From positions 1 through 33,735 of IMG/VR virus record IMGVR_UViG_3300036846_000637: a DNA stretch of 33,735 bases, one strand, 5' to 3'. Positions 17,177 to 27,355 of this stretch are shown here, piece after piece; within the stretch, counting starts at the first letter, position 1; each line of letters begins with the position of its first letter. This DNA comes from a virus. Position numbers and translations under genes: made by a program. The notes under the pieces are model-generated. The model did not search any database. It was not told where the DNA came from and was given only the letters and a program-made list of their open reading frames with translations.

Positions 17177-17424
17177 CGCAGATTGAAATGACTGAACCAC
17201 CGCGGTCGGGCCGACCGAAGGGCACGCGCGACGCCAGGCCTCGGAGGCCTCGGATCTACCAGCCGTCGCGCGGCTTCGATGGCCTGGCGCGGCTGATGCG
17301 GACGGCCGCACGCGCCGGCTTTGAACTGGACGACATGAAGGTCGACAAGTCAGGACGGATTACCCTGGTGCTGCAGGGAACCGCCACGAGGAGCACTGAT
17401 GAACAAAAAGCGGAAATCGCCTGA
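17173..17424 (+). CDS. Small basic protein between recT and the excisionase-like gene
   Basis: An 83-residue protein starting MTQIEMTEPPRSGRPKGTRDARPRRP. The N-terminal 35 residues are Arg/Pro-rich, with a GRPKG motif resembling an AT-hook. The rest (GFDGLARLMRTAARAGFELDDMKVDKSGRITLVLQG) looks like a compact alpha/beta unit. It overlaps recT by four bases and the next gene by 26. Possibly DNA-binding; family not recognised. Confidence 0.65.
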   Translation: MTQIEMTEPPRSGRPKGTRDARPRRPRIYQPSRGFDGLARLMRTAARAGFELDDMKVDKSGRITLVLQGTATRSTDEQKAEIA

Positions 17425-17605
17425 CGCGCCGCCGCCTGAGGCCTTGGTGCTGACGATTGCCGAGGCGCGGACGCTGGCGCGATTGAGCCGCGCCAGCCTC
17501 TACCGGGCGATGGATACCAAGCAGCTGCGCTACCTCAAATACGGATCGCGCCGGTTGATTGCCAAGGAAGATCTCAATGCGTTCATTGCCAGCTTGCGGG
17601 TATGA
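17399..17605 (+). CDS. Excisionase-like helix-turn-helix protein
   Basis: A 68-residue protein, MNKKRKSPDAPPPEALVLTIAEARTLARLSRASLYRAMDTKQLRYLKYGSRRLIAKEDLNAFIASLRV (given here in parts: TIAEARTLARLSRASLYRAM, then KYGSRRLIAKEDLNAFI). This is the winged HTH_17/MerR-type excisionase pattern: recognition helix, then a hairpin with basic residues, then the EDL-helix. It is basic and sits seven bases from the convergent integrase stop, so it likely controls integrase directionality. It could instead be a plain regulator. Confidence 0.75.
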   Translation: MNKKRKSPDAPPPEALVLTIAEARTLARLSRASLYRAMDTKQLRYLKYGSRRLIAKEDLNAFIASLRV

Positions 17606-17612
17606 GGGTGGC

Positions 17613-18845
17613 CTAGGCCGCCACCACGGCCAGCCGCGGGCGCGGCTTGAACGTGCTGTAGCAATAATTCTCCCAGTCGCGCATCAGCACAGCGCGCTTC
17701 TGCAAGGCGGTGCGCCGGCGGTAGGCGGCCTTGGTTTCGTTGCCCTCGGCGTGGTGAAGCGCAAAGTCGATGGTGTCGGCGTCGTGCGCGGTTTCATCCC
17801 CGGCCCAATCCTGGAACGTCGAGCGCATGCCGTGCACGGTGGCCGGCGGCGCTGCATCGCCGAGCACGGTCTTCAGCATCCTGTCCATCGTCTGGGTCGA
17901 CATGGTCTGTTCGCTGGTGCGGCTCGCCATCGCGCGGCCCGGAAACACATAGCGGCCGTGGCCGGTGAGCACGCGCATGGCGCGCAGGATCTCGATGGCA
18001 CGGTCGCCCAGCGGCACCACGTGCTCGATTTCCTTGTTCTTCATCCTTGTGCCTCTCGGAATGGTCCAAAGGCCGGCGTCGAGATCGATCTCGCTCCACT
18101 CCATGCCGAGCATTTCGCCGGTGCGCACGGCTGTCAGGATCGTGAGCTCGAGGGCGCGGGCGGAGGCGGCGTCGACGTCGCGCAGCTTCGCCATGAAGGC
18201 CGGGAGTTTTTCGTAGGGCAGGGCGGGATGATGCTCGACGATCTTCTTGCCGCGCTGCTGGCCGAGCACGGCCTTGACGGCATCGAGCTCGGCCGGATTG
18301 TCGCCGCTGCGCAGGCCGGCGTGCTTGGCGGCCTTGAAGATGCGCTCCAGCCGGCCGCGCAGGCGGCGGGCGGTTTCTTCCTTGCTGTACCAGATCGGGC
18401 GCAGCGCGGCGACCACGTCGGCGGTGGTGATGGCGTCGATCCGTTTATTGTGCAGCGGCTCGGCGTAGACGCTGATGGTCATGAGCCATTGGCTGGTGTG
18501 CTTTTTGTTGACCCATCCGGGGGTCCATTCCCGGACGCAGTCGAGCGCGAATTTGAGGAACGGCGGCCTGGCGTCCGGAGTGTTGCGGTCGCGCTCTGCC
18601 TTGGGATCGATCGGCGGGTTCTGGGCCAGCTTGCGTTTCTGGTCGACGGCCCAGTCGCGGGCCATGGCGAGGGTGATGTTGGCGGTCGAGCCGGGATGGA
18701 ACATCTTCTTCTGCTTGCCCTGCCAGAGGTAGCGGAACAGCCAGTAGGAGCCGTTTTTGCGAACCTCGAGGTAGAGGCCATTGCCGTCGCCGTGAAGGCC
18801 TTCCGAGGTGGGCAATCGGGCCGGATGGAGGAAATGAATGGGCAT
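17613..18845 (-). CDS. int: Tyrosine-family phage integrase (P4-type)
   Basis: A 410-residue integrase. The N-terminal DUF4102-like part (residues 1-75, DGNGLYLEVRKNGSYWLFRYLWQGKQKK) is followed by a SAM-like core-binding region (about 95-195) and the catalytic domain. Catalytic residues are visible: R241 (AVRTGEMLGMEW), H338 and R341 (HGMR), H365 (LHHAEGNET) and the nucleophile Y375 (AAYRR). It should join attP to a host attB and integrate the genome. The excisionase-like gene faces it, and the gap behind its start (18846-19262) is full of repeats suited to arm or accessory sites. It appears intact. Confidence 0.95.
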   Translation of the reverse strand: MPIHFLHPARLPTSEGLHGDGNGLYLEVRKNGSYWLFRYLWQGKQKKMFHPGSTANITLAMARDWAVDQKRKLAQNPPIDPKAERDRNTPDARPPFLKFALDCVREWTPGWVNKKHTSQWLMTISVYAEPLHNKRIDAITTADVVAALRPIWYSKEETARRLRGRLERIFKAAKHAGLRSGDNPAELDAVKAVLGQQRGKKIVEHHPALPYEKLPAFMAKLRDVDAASARALELTILTAVRTGEMLGMEWSEIDLDAGLWTIPRGTRMKNKEIEHVVPLGDRAIEILRAMRVLTGHGRYVFPGRAMASRTSEQTMSTQTMDRMLKTVLGDAAPPATVHGMRSTFQDWAGDETAHDADTIDFALHHAEGNETKAAYRRRTALQKRAVLMRDWENYCYSTFKPRPRLAVVAA

Positions 18846-18911
18846 GTTTTTCTCAGCCTTTTCGGGAAAAATGAGGGCTACTGGGATTTTTAAACTCGGT
18901 TTCTGACCCGA

Positions 18912-19113
18912 GGTGGGACCCTAACTCACGCGGGGGTACTGCGCAAGGTACAATTTGGAGCTGAGATACACCGGAATAGGGGGAGACAAAGTGAGACGAT
19001 CAGAGACAGAAAAGCAACCAGAAACCCTGTGAAATGAAGGGAATATTGAGATGGCGGGAGACAGCGGGAGACAGGCGGAGACGTGCCACGAGTGGAAGGG
19101 GTGGGACCCTAAC
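18912..19113 (+). repeat. 14-bp direct repeat GGTGGGACCCTAAC
   Basis: Two identical copies at 18912-18925 and 19100-19113 bracket the phased GAGAC clusters; both are followed by a short C/G-rich word ending CGCG. Bracketing of the array suggests a functional unit such as an attachment site or operator set. Confidence 0.7.
18963..19083 (+). repeat. Two clusters of GAGAC-type motifs phased at 10 bp
   Basis: A GAGA core occurs at 18963, 18983, 18993 and 19003 (with a degenerate GGAA at 18973), and again at 19048, 19058, 19068 and 19078. Best units are GGGAGACA (18981, 19056, 19066). Within each cluster the spacing is one DNA helical turn, so a protein could bind on one face. The clusters are offset from each other by 45 bp. 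Candidates are integrase arm or Xis sites, or iterons for replication. Confidence 0.75.
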
Positions 19114-19262
19114 CCGCGTCAAAACCCTATAAAAATAGCGGTTCGCGCGCATCGGCAGGGGGGGGCGAGGGTACTATTTAGGGTACTTTGCTTCGAGTTC
19201 CCGCCAAACTCAAAAAAAATCAGACGTAAAAACAATGACTTACAGCCTAGGGTACTCGACCC

Positions 19263-19874
19263 ATGACCCTCGCTTTCGTCGCTTTTCATATGCGCGACTA
19301 CCAACGCGACACCCAGCATTTATCGCTGGAGGCCCACGGCGCCTACTTCCTGCTGCTGCAGCACTGCTGGACCCACGGCCGCATTCCCTTGGACGAGACC
19401 TCGCGCGCGGCGATCTGCAAGGTTACGGTGGCGCGCTGGCGCCGGCAGCTGGCGCCGCTGGTCGCGCCCTTCTTCGACGCCAACGGCGAGAACAAGCGCG
19501 CCAGCGCCGAGATCGCCAAGGTCGAGAAGATGCGTTTGCAACGCGCCATGGCCGGGCACAATGGCGGGCTCCGAGCGCAGCAGCAGAAGGCCATTCGTCA
19601 AGCGGTCGCTCAAGCTACCGCTCAAGCTACCGCTAGACGACCGCTAAGCGAGAGCTCAAGCGGCCGTGAAGCAATAAAGAAAGATATAATAAATACTTCC
19701 TTTGGAACTGCGCGCGCGCGAGATCCAACACCGGAGGAAAATCCAACAATTTCAACGGAGCAAGAGGAGGCAAAGAGGTTGGCCGAGGAAGCAAGGGCCC
19801 GCATTCGAGCCACGACCAGCGTCGCCAGCGGTGAGTTAGAAGTGGTCTTGCGAGAGAAGGGTTGGGCGCGATGA
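19263..19874 (+). CDS. DUF1376 (YdaU-like) phage replication-type protein
   Basis: A 203-residue protein. Residues 1-95 match the DUF1376 pattern: FVAFHMRDYQRDTQHLSLEAHGAYFLLLQHCW, then a helix pair and PFFDAN. Members are found in phage replication modules and are thought to act with primosome functions. The C-terminal half is Gln/Ala/Glu-rich and probably disordered, with a tandem repeat encoding AQAT. AGGG lies ten bases before the ATG. The stop overlaps the next start (ATGA at 19871). Confidence 0.75.
   Translation: MTLAFVAFHMRDYQRDTQHLSLEAHGAYFLLLQHCWTHGRIPLDETSRAAICKVTVARWRRQLAPLVAPFFDANGENKRASAEIAKVEKMRLQRAMAGHNGGLRAQQQKAIRQAVAQATAQATARRPLSESSSGREAIKKDIINTSFGTARARDPTPEENPTISTEQEEAKRLAEEARARIRATTSVASGELEVVLREKGWAR
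19608..19631 (+). repeat. 12-bp tandem repeat in the DUF1376-type gene
   Basis: Two exact copies of GCTCAAGCTACC (19608-19619, 19620-19631) are followed by a diverged third (GCTAGACGACC). They encode the Ala-Gln-Ala-Thr stretch at the domain-tail boundary. Confidence 0.85.
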
Positions 19875-20306: not shown

Positions 20307-20522
20307 ATGTCGCGCGTATCAGAAAAATTGCCAAAGCGGATATTCACCTACGGCGATCTTGCCACCTGCGCCGAGCGCGAAACCAACATGCGGCGCCAGG
20401 TCTATCGCAACCGCATTCTGACCCGCCGCATGACGCAGCAGCAGGCCAACCGCGAGATCGACATGATGCGCGAAATCGGCGAAGTGTTGCGCTCTCTCGC
20501 GGTGAGCGAGAGGCTGCTGTGA
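20307..20522 (+). CDS. Small basic helical early protein
   Basis: A 71-residue protein starting MSRVSEKLPKRIFTYGDLATCAERETNMRRQVYRNRILTRRM. The ATG at 20307 follows the preceding stop by two bases, and its stop overlaps the GTG of the methyltransferase (GTGA at 20519). The sequence is a charged helical bundle; the C-terminal part (QQANREIDMMREIGEVLRSL) fits the coiled-coil small proteins seen in alphaproteobacterial phages. Unknown function. Confidence 0.65.
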   Translation: MSRVSEKLPKRIFTYGDLATCAERETNMRRQVYRNRILTRRMTQQQANREIDMMREIGEVLRSLAVSERLL

Positions 20523-21457
20523 CTGTGACATTGCTCATCGGCGACTGCAGGGATGTGCTGATCACGCTGCCGGCACAGTCGATGCATTGCTGCGTGACGT
20601 CGCCGCCGTATTTCGGGCTGCGCGATTATGGTGCGGCTGGACAGATCGGGCTTGAGCCGACGCCGGCCGGTTACGTCGCCGAGTTGGTCGCAGTGTTCCG
20701 CGAGGTGCGGCGGGTGCTGCGCGACGACGCAACGCTGTGGCTTAATTTGGGGGATAGCTATGCGAACGATGGAAAGTCCGGCGGCAAGACGGGGGGAAAG
20801 CAGGCCTACCTCGATGAGGCGAGCCTGCTGCGCAACGGTCGCGAGAAGCGTGTCACCGGGCTAAAACCCAAAGACCTGATCGGCATCCCTTGGCGCGTTG
20901 CGTTCGCACTGCAAGCTGATGGCTGGTATCTGCGCCAAGACATCATCTGGTCGAAGCCTAACCCGATGCCGGAAAGCGTCACCGACCGCTGCACCAAGGC
21001 GCATGAATACATTTTTCTGATGAGCAAGTCGGCGCGGTATTTTTACGATGCGCAGGCGATCGCGGAAACCGTAGTAGACAGCACGGTTGAGCGGCTGGCG
21101 CAGGATCTTGAAAAACAGGCCGGATCAAATCGCGTGCCGGGCAAAACCAACGGCAATATGAAGGCGGTTGGTTATGAGAAGCGCAACAAGCGCAGCGTTT
21201 GGGAAGTCACCACCCAACCGTTTACCGACGCGCACTTTGCCACATTCCCACCAGATCTGATCGAGCCTTGCATCAAGGCTGGTTGTCCGGCTGGTGGCAC
21301 GGTGCTCGACCCATTCGCCGGCGCCGGCACGACAGGCCTTGTGGCCGATCGGCTGCAGCGCCATGCGCTCTTGATCGAGTTGAACCCTGACTATGCAGGG
21401 ATGGCGGGCCAGCGGACTACCGACGATGCGCCGCTGTTTGCCGGTGTGGTGATGTGA
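20519..21457 (+). CDS. DNA methyltransferase, beta-class (TSPPY; N4-cytosine or N6-adenine)
   Basis: A 312-residue protein starting at GTG 20519. The catalytic motif IV is TSPPY (27-31), near the N-terminus; the AdoMet-binding motif I, DPFAGAGTTG (264-273), is near the C-terminus, the permuted order of beta-class enzymes. The centre holds LWLNLGDSY, GIPWRVAFALQADGWYLRQDIIWSKPNPMP (a target-recognition and motif VIII region) and a variable stretch. TSPPY is commonest in N4-cytosine enzymes but also occurs in adenine ones, so the modified base is not settled. No restriction enzyme is adjacent, so self-protection or gene control is likelier than a restriction-modification pair. Confidence 0.9.
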   Translation: MTVTLLIGDCRDVLITLPAQSMHCCVTSPPYFGLRDYGAAGQIGLEPTPAGYVAELVAVFREVRRVLRDDATLWLNLGDSYANDGKSGGKTGGKQAYLDEASLLRNGREKRVTGLKPKDLIGIPWRVAFALQADGWYLRQDIIWSKPNPMPESVTDRCTKAHEYIFLMSKSARYFYDAQAIAETVVDSTVERLAQDLEKQAGSNRVPGKTNGNMKAVGYEKRNKRSVWEVTTQPFTDAHFATFPPDLIEPCIKAGCPAGGTVLDPFAGAGTTGLVADRLQRHALLIELNPDYAGMAGQRTTDDAPLFAGVVM

Positions 21458-24166: not shown

Positions 24167-24394
24167 TCAGGCTCCCGGCGGGAGCGGCGGCGGGAATTTA
24201 TTTTTCTTGATCCACTCGAGCTGTTCCTCGGCCCGCTTTCTGTCAGCCTGCTGCCTTTTGGCCTCGGCAATTTTCTCATCGTACTCGGAAGGTGCGGTAA
24301 GATCGTCCCATATGACGGCGCCGAGAAATGAGAGCAGAGGAATGATCAGACAAATCGCACCGATGACGAAGATGACGGACACAGAGATGCCCAT
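24167..24394 (-). CDS. Single-span membrane protein with charged coiled tail
   Basis: A 75-residue protein from the ATG at 24394, which shares one base with the upstream stop (TAATG) and has AGGAGG seven bases before it. A longer frame with no such site begins 18 codons earlier inside the recombinase gene. Residues 5-28 (SVIFVIGAICLIIPLLSFLGAVIW) form one membrane segment, followed by an acidic/basic helix (EYDEKIAEAKRQQADRKRAEEQLEWIKK) and a proline-rich end. Function unknown; it may be a lysogenic-conversion or spanin-like protein, but no lipoprotein partner is seen. Confidence 0.7.
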   Translation of the reverse strand: MGISVSVIFVIGAICLIIPLLSFLGAVIWDDLTAPSEYDEKIAEAKRQQADRKRAEEQLEWIKKNKFPPPLPPGA

Positions 24395-25041
24395 TACGCG
24401 GCCTCCTGCAGCCGGGCCAGCAGCCGCAGCACGGTCACCGACGACCATGCGGCGCCGGTCGCGCTCGGAACGCTGGAGGCGTTGAGATGGGCGGCAATGG
24501 CGCGGGACGACAGATGCATGACGGGCTCAAGGATGGCCCGCAGTGACTCAGCGAAGGCGCAGGAGCGGTTTTGCAGGATGGCCGCTGTGGTGGGGCTGCC
24601 GAGCCTGACGCCGCGCTCCTTGGCCGCCGCAAGGGCGTGGCGCGTCCTGGTCGAGATCATGCGGCGCTCCTGCTCGGCCAAAGCGGCGTAGATGTGCAGC
24701 ATGAAGGGATCAGCGTTAGACCCGAGCTCGGCCACGATGAACGGCACGCGGTTAGACATCAGGCCGGCAATGAAGGCGACGTCACGCGACAGCCGATCGA
24801 GCTTGGCGACGATGACGGGGCAGCTGTTAGACTTGGCGCATTCGAGCGCGACCTTGAGCTGCGGCCGCTTGTCGAGGGCGTCAGCGCCTTTGCCGGTCTC
24901 GACCTCCTTGTAGGTGTGCAGCAGATGGAAACCCTCGGCCGCACAGAAGCGCGCGATCGCTTCCTGCTGCGCCTCGAGGCCAAGGCCGCTCCGGCCTTGT
25001 TTTTGCGTGCTGACGCGGATGTAAGCGACGGCGGGCTTCAT
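24394..25041 (-). CDS. Serine recombinase (resolvase/invertase family)
   Basis: A 215-residue protein from ATG 25041 ([12 protein letters not shown]); the upstream open frame lacks family similarity. The catalytic serine is in YIRVST (Ser10), followed by [12 protein letters not shown], then [17 protein letters not shown] (the LDRLSRD motif), and the helical [31 protein letters not shown] (helix E). The C-terminus (residues about 150-215) holds an HTH-like part ([17 protein letters not shown]). Its start is followed by a dyad and a 10-bp iteron array. This is the second recombinase in the phage besides the tyrosine integrase. It is likely an inversion or resolution enzyme or regulator rather than the integrase. 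Confidence 0.9.
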
Positions 25042-25075
25042 GGTATTGATGTTCCCCTGGTTGAACACGTCAGTT

Positions 25076-25094
25076 ATAGGAAATGGTTTCCTAT
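25076..25094. promoter_or_regulatory. Perfect 8-bp dyad upstream of the serine recombinase gene
   Basis: ATAGGAAA-TGG-TTTCCTAT is an inverted repeat with a 3-base centre, 35 bases before the recombinase start codon, in an A/T-richer gap. This is the size of an operator or of a recombinase half-site pair. Between it and the next gene lies the 10-bp iteron array. Confidence 0.7.
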
Positions 25095-25110
25095 TGGTCA
25101 AGTGAGGAAA

Positions 25111-25170
25111 CGACAGATTGCGACAATCCGCGACAAATGACGACAAATGACGACAAATCGCGACAGAGCA
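25111..25170 (+). repeat. Six tandem 10-bp repeats CGACAAAT-like
   Basis: Six contiguous units at 25111, 25121, 25131, 25141, 25151 and 25161 all start CGACA (CGACAGATTG, CGACAATCCG, CGACAAATGA twice, CGACAAATCG, CGACAGAGCA). The period equals one helical turn. The ATG of the following small gene lies inside unit three. Plausible as iterons for a replication protein or as binding sites for a regulator. Confidence 0.85.
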
Positions 25171-25319
25171 GGGCGGAGCTGACGCAGTTGCTCTATGGCG
25201 ACGAGATCCCGTGGAGCGAGCGCTCGCTGGCATTCAAATGTCGCTGGGTTTTCGATCGCACCTGGCAGCGCATTGCTGATGCCTGGCTGGTGCTGACCGG
25301 ACGCGCCGACATTGGCTAG
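25137..25319 (+). CDS. Small protein beginning inside the iteron array
   Basis: A 60-residue protein from ATG 25137 ([21 protein letters not shown]). The array encodes its first ten residues; an upstream ATG at 25083 has no good ribosome site. Good codon choice begins at about residue 12: [47 protein letters not shown]. It ends over the stop of the convergent small ORF. Unknown function; existence moderately supported. Confidence 0.5.
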
Positions 25320-26806: not shown

Positions 26807-27355
26807 CTATCCGAAGGGGATCTCCCGCTGATAGCATGCTGTGCATTTTCCGTAGCCTACGTGCTTGCGGGCAACGGTGCCGCAAACAACGCAACTATCG
26901 AAGTGTTTGGCCCAACGATCCATTTTGCCATGGAACGCGCTGTGCTCGGAATGCGTAAGCAATTCCAAGTTTTCTATGCGGTTATCCAGCGTATCTTCAT
27001 TACGGTGGTGCACATGTTCGCTGCTGGTAAGGGCACGCTTCAAGTGCTGTGCCATTACGTGGCGATGTTCGAATACCCAGCCTTTTCTACCCGGGCCTGC
27101 TTTAACTTTCCGATAAATCAGTGTCGGTCTGGCGCTATGCAGCTGGATAGCACCGATTTCACAACGATCCGTTGTCCCGAGCGGCAAAGCTTTCCGTCGT
27201 CTACCCCAGTCCTTGTTGCCATGTCCGGGGATAAAAATCGCATAGCCTTTTACCTGACCTTCGCGGCGACCACTTTTACACAACCGTACTGGAGCGAAAG
27301 CTTCACAGCCGCAACCGCACAGGTTTGGCAATCGTGTTCTTTGGCCTTTTCTCAT
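26807..27355 (-). CDS. HNH endonuclease (free-standing, homing type)
   Basis: A 182-residue protein. The HNH core is [48 protein letters not shown] (in parts: [20 protein letters not shown]), with the catalytic His pair and metal-binding Asn/His. The N-terminus carries CGCGCEAF and the C-terminus [22 protein letters not shown], giving zinc-ribbon cysteines. It makes a DNA cut and is probably a homing endonuclease. It runs against its neighbours and lies in a visibly lower-GC patch, both signs of later insertion. Being near terminase genes, a packaging role is also possible. Confidence 0.88.

Follow-up and report, generated by a model that had tools for sequence, protein, structure and literature searches.

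The 417-bp noncoding gap between a leftward integrase gene and a rightward DUF1376 gene in this virus is very probably, to judge from its sequence, the attP of a temperate phage, and the GTCTC decamers that sit in it would be cooperative sites for an excisionase-like protein encoded at 17399–17605. The layout is most likely of a kind already known, in which the attP of a P4-type integrase holds excisionase sites in two clusters, and many related mobile elements share it. The window, by which we mean the whole stretch of DNA analysed, comprises 33,735 bp and is an entire virus record of IMG/VR. Its integrase gene (17613–18845, minus strand) encodes a tyrosine integrase of P4 type, in which the arm-binding, core-binding and catalytic domains (Arm-DNA-bind_3, PF13356; Phage_int_M, PF22022; Phage_integrase, PF00589) all exceed the cut-offs. 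The excisionase-like gene (plus strand) is convergent with the integrase gene across a 7-bp gap and leaves no room for an attP on the 3′ side of the latter, so the attP is expected in the gap that bears the decamers. Phage genes lie on both sides of this gap, as expected for an unintegrated phage genome. A consensus scan found no promoter, including a σ70-like one for the integrase gene, and no terminator. The same phage encodes, beside the tyrosine integrase, another site-specific recombinase, from the serine resolvase/invertase family (24394–25233, minus strand), as well as a DNA methyltransferase (N6_N4_Mtase) and an HNH endonuclease (20519–21457 and 26807–27355).

The gap contains eight GAGA cores, at 18963, 18983, 18993 and 19003 and at 19048, 19058, 19068 and 19078, exactly where an earlier note on this DNA had placed them. 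Six are GAGAC, and those at 18963 and 19048 are GAGAT. Read towards the integrase gene, the word is GTCTC (GAGAC on the plus strand), and the units, putative excisionase sites, form an integrase-proximal cluster B (18963–19008, minus strand; GTCTC at 19003, 18993 and 18983, ATCTC at 18963) and a core-proximal cluster A (19048–19083, minus strand; GTCTC at 19078, 19068 and 19058, ATCTC at 19048). The claim that units within a cluster are spaced by exactly one turn holds at 10 bp for most steps, but not between 18963 and 18983, which are 20 bp apart with no unit at 18973. The decamer layout is real and far beyond chance. In the comparison with shuffled sequence that the earlier note had proposed, there are five GAGA pairs and four GAGAC pairs at a lag of 10, and none of 5000 dinucleotide-preserving shuffles of 18841–19262 gave values as high (p < 2e-4). 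When any 5-mer at any spacing of 8–12 is allowed, the observed maximum is 4, versus a maximum of 2 in 3000 shuffles. Furthermore, a list of all GAGAC positions contains no second phased cluster elsewhere in the 33.7 kb. The spacer between the clusters (19009–19047) has ~40% GC and a weak IHF-like sequence with two mismatches, and AT content across the integrase family peaks in the matching interval; a host-induced DNA bend may therefore be placed here.

The predicted binder of the decamers is the 68-aa winged helix-turn-helix protein encoded at 17399–17605. It matches HTH_17 above the cut-off, scores 28.3 bits with TIGR01764, just below the cut-off of 28.8, and weakly matches phrog_66 ‘excisionase and transcriptional regulator’ (E = 0.002). 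A structure prediction with 28 family members as input gives a confident winged helix-turn-helix fold (pLDDT 89.5). A family profile compared with the PDB retrieves AlpA, BldC, Pukovnik Xis (4j2n) and TorI (1z4h), and weakly RdfS, while a Foldseek search with the model places BldC-DNA, Tn916 Xis and RdfS in the top six, with modest E-values. In addition, a similar excisionase-like ORF lies downstream of the integrase gene in 103 of the 111 relatives’ loci where one was found. The earlier note had listed this protein among the candidate binders, which is plausible, together with the DUF1376 protein (gene at 19263–19874, rightward), which is unlikely to be the binder because it resembles phage primosomal proteins. 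No array comparable to the GAGAC array is present upstream of the DUF1376 relatives; at one locus (L003), the sequence upstream of 2351, a DUF1376 gene, contains GTAAGACG/GTGGGACG repeats ~12 bp apart.

Integrase relatives were gathered from phage, viral and bacterial genome collections, and exact hexamer repeats were counted in 131 regions upstream of the integrase genes. At lag 12 there are 124 repeats, versus 14.4 in shuffled sequence and 25 downstream of the integrase genes, and at lag 10 there are 75, versus 20.6 and 16; the excess is weaker at lags 20, 24 and 30, and little or none is seen at other lags. In the 121 non-redundant regions, the lag-12 words (including GGGTA, GGACC and TTAGG) lie mostly within about 100 bp of the integrase start, while the lag-10 words (including GTTCG, TGTCC, GTCCG and TCTAC) lie farther from it. 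We read these as two periodic classes, of which the 12-bp repeats would be integrase arm sites and the 10-bp repeats would form two clusters between the core and the arms. Individual relatives’ loci have the full order of core, cluster A, AT-rich spacer, cluster B, arm repeats and integrase gene. In the window, the order towards the integrase gene is GGTAC at 19251, a GGTAC pair at 19187–19170, a core-like sequence at 19118–19100, cluster A at 19083–19048, the spacer, cluster B at 19008–18963, a GGTAC pair at 18952–18935, and the integrase start at 18845. Cluster A matches the relatives’ cluster A, and cluster B matches the relatives’ cluster B as well as TorI sites I3–I5.

The predicted attP core (19100–19118) is a 6-7-6 imperfect inverted repeat, CGCGGG-TTAGGGT-CCCACC on the minus strand, and is the best core-like match in the gap, with 9 of 12 consensus positions. 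A recognisable core, GGYGGA-N6-8-TCCRCC, is found in 26 relatives’ loci, and in six of these the first decamer lies 37 bp (or 27 bp) from the core start, versus 36 bp from the candidate core start in the window. The 14-bp direct repeat said to bracket the clusters is indeed present, as 14 exact bases, GGTGGGACCCTAAC, at 18912–18925 and 19100–19113. Its second copy belongs to a core-like sequence near the integrase start (18912–18930), and both sequences, at 18912–18930 and 19100–19118, are imperfect inverted repeats with a 7-bp spacer. Among the 26 relatives whose core can be recognised, none has a counterpart of the integrase-adjacent copy; the copy at 18912–18925 may serve the integrase as a core-like site over the integrase promoter, or be the operator of another regulator. 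A search with the pattern of the 14-bp repeat gave seven viral matches, none of which has a match to the integrase or the DUF1376 protein of the window. No tRNA-derived core, common among the relatives, was recognised by eye in the window, no tRNA gene is present there, and no DNA relative of the gap was found in the phage collection. For attB, a pattern search of 10 genomes and a DNA search of 199 genomes from one order gave only weak matches, mostly in the GC-rich stretch past the predicted core and none convincing.

Direct repeats of arm type flank the candidate core on both sides. On the P′ side, GGTACT and GGTACA lie 12 bp apart (18935–18952; starts at 18935 and 18947), while on the P side two copies of GGTACT lie 12 bp apart (19170–19187; starts at 19170 and 19182), with a possible fifth site, GGTACT, at 19251–19256. 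We infer that these GGTAC pairs are integrase arm sites; lag-12 repeats are the strongest feature of the integrase family near the integrase start. The decamers themselves might instead be the arm-type sites, given their place within the attP and the arm-binding domain of the integrase. This assignment is very improbable, since the integrase-proximal repeats of the family are spaced by 12 bp, have another sequence and flank the decamers, since the window carries, apart from the decamers, a GGTAC pair with 12-bp spacing at either end, and since the 10-bp sites of KplE1 bind TorI and not IntS (PMC2951348).

The earlier note had described the two clusters as half a turn out of phase, which is correct only if a turn takes 10.0 bp. 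With 10.5 bp per turn, the 75 bp between the cluster starts make 7.14 turns and the 45 bp between the facing edges make 4.29. The register was counted in loci where one 5-mer occurs in both clusters, and the inter-cluster offset is 1–5 mod 10 in all 40 such loci, with 27 at 3 or 4. The shuffled set yields about four such two-cluster loci, with residues roughly even. The register of 1–5 is kept in all 33 loci that remain once similar integrases are thinned out and in all 22 loci when 6-mer words are used, and is looser with 4-mer words (68 of 80). With an offset residue of 5, the window lies at the margin of the family range. Offsets of 43 or 63 bp correspond to 4.1 or 6.0 turns at 10.5 bp per turn, so that the clusters face roughly the same way; the window, with 45 or 75 bp (4.3 or 7.1 turns), is again at the margin, and the half-turn reading is thus unsupported. 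It is conceivable, although we lean towards doubting it, that this integrase family obeys a geometric rule, in which two head-to-tail clusters are offset by ~10n+3 bp, near whole 10.5-bp turns, because excisionase filaments flanking a bent spacer must face alike in the excisive complex; the window would then be one instance. If the rule is true, excisionase sites, arm sites and att cores would be predictable from sequence alone.

A DNA-only pattern scan of all viral contigs for two GTCTC pairs, each 10 bp apart and with 30–60 bp between them, gave 23 loci, mostly tandem repeats. In four of these (L231, L233, L234 and L248), an integrase of the window’s family starts 120–190 bp downstream and is oriented as predicted. 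In two others (L244 and L247), the array lies at the very end of the available sequence. The decamer word tracks excisionase similarity weakly (Mantel p = 0.017, uncorrected), and this link is not strengthened by the loci selected with GTCTC, since their excisionases rank 32, 37 and 47 of 113 by nearness to that of the window and are not the nearest. As a diagnostic motif, the GGAGACN4 triple was rejected: it has 37 viral contig matches with no recognised integrase of the window’s family nearby, and the motif alone is thus not diagnostic. Phased GGAGAC decamer arrays without a recognised same-family integrase are present at L013, L014, L028, L033, L035, L040, L047 and L048, several of which are noncoding tandem arrays. 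The 37 matches would suit a neutral, microsatellite-like tandem repeat that has no function. For the window, such an origin is extremely improbable, because the units share only a 5–6 bp core, have diverged spacers and form two clusters as in relatives with unrelated words, and because the register is kept in all 40 loci counted with 5-mer words.

If the decamers are excisionase sites, the order towards the integrase gene would be P-arm sites, crossover core, cluster A, AT-rich spacer, cluster B, P′-arm sites and integrase gene. The 68-aa winged helix-turn-helix protein would then bind the decamers as head-to-tail sites spaced by one helical turn and, when cooperatively bound, would bend or wrap attL DNA. 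The bound excisionase would help the integrase to bridge core and arm sites, and would thereby drive excision and disfavour reintegration. Since the decamers lie just upstream of the integrase gene, the excisionase probably also modulates integrase transcription, as TorI does. The sequences themselves show the repeats and their spacings, the conservation across the family of both repeat classes and of the inter-cluster register, and the excisionase-like gene; the pairing of protein with repeats, the position of the core, the bending and the regulation are what we infer here. Operators of an early or lysogeny regulator, serving divergent integrase and DUF1376 promoters and unrelated to recombination, could also account for clusters between divergent genes, and excisionases can double as regulators, as described for 186 Apl (PMC7498355). 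A purely regulatory role is nevertheless very improbable, given that the layout accompanies integrases in many genetic contexts and stands at a constant distance from the att core.

The excisionase-site reading identifies a likely attachment site and a likely excisionase for a phage not characterised before, and makes an ordinary module of what had seemed odd. With the 10-bp and 12-bp repeat classes and the register kept across divergent integrases, excisionase and arm sites can be proposed by a simple rule from sequence. As a generalisation, the conserved register is modestly useful, and it places on the excisive complex a constraint that can be tested.

Comparison with known systems upholds the suggestion that the array consists of protein-binding sites beside the integrase gene, with the excisionase-like protein as a candidate binder, as likely, but contradicts the claim that the layout is unusual for an attP. 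Excisionase sites in general have as their standard layout direct repeats spaced by one helical turn (PMC7498355). A pair of clusters upstream of a P4-type integrase is the mapped layout of KplE1, where TorI, the excisionase, binds two blocks of sites, five in all, upstream of intS (PMC2951348). On the MG1655 sequence, the TorI sites lie at relative positions 28, 48 | 91, 101 and 111, with steps of 20, 43, 10 and 10 bp. The attL of KplE1 (CPS-53), with IntS and TorI, resembles the window in having a related integrase, a winged helix-turn-helix excisionase and two blocks of sites upstream of the integrase gene. Both have 10-bp and 20-bp steps (10, 10 and 20 in cluster B of the window), and the gap is 45 bp in the window and 43 bp in KplE1. 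TorI has five sites, GTTCG/GTCCG/GATCG, whereas the window has eight candidate sites, GTCTC/ATCTC; unlike the window, KplE1 uses the argW tRNA and has no exact 12-bp-spaced 5-mer repeat. The two-cluster layout of TorI and the winged helix-turn-helix gene just beyond the integrase gene make cooperative excisionase sites the most likely identity of the clusters.

The attP of coliphage 186, bound by Apl, also has direct repeats, with five sites spaced by 10–11 bp and with cooperative binding and bending (PMC7498355); no two-cluster layout is noted there in the passages on these five sites, and, unlike the window, 186 is a P2-like phage whose Apl stands apart in sequence from other excisionases. 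The attP of ICEMlSymR7A, with IntS and RdfS, has five arm sites, and its HTH_17 excisionase binds attP upstream of intS (PMC11963761), but RdfS has no apparent consensus motif and its gene lies in a conjugation operon. The best annotated match to the integrase of the window is that of Caulobacter phage DMCA, which differs in having GTCGC decamers and an excisionase-like gene upstream, not downstream, of the integrase gene. DMCA has a tRNA-like core and, like the window, two clusters of 10-bp decamers and 12-bp arm repeats (CTTAGG) in the same order.
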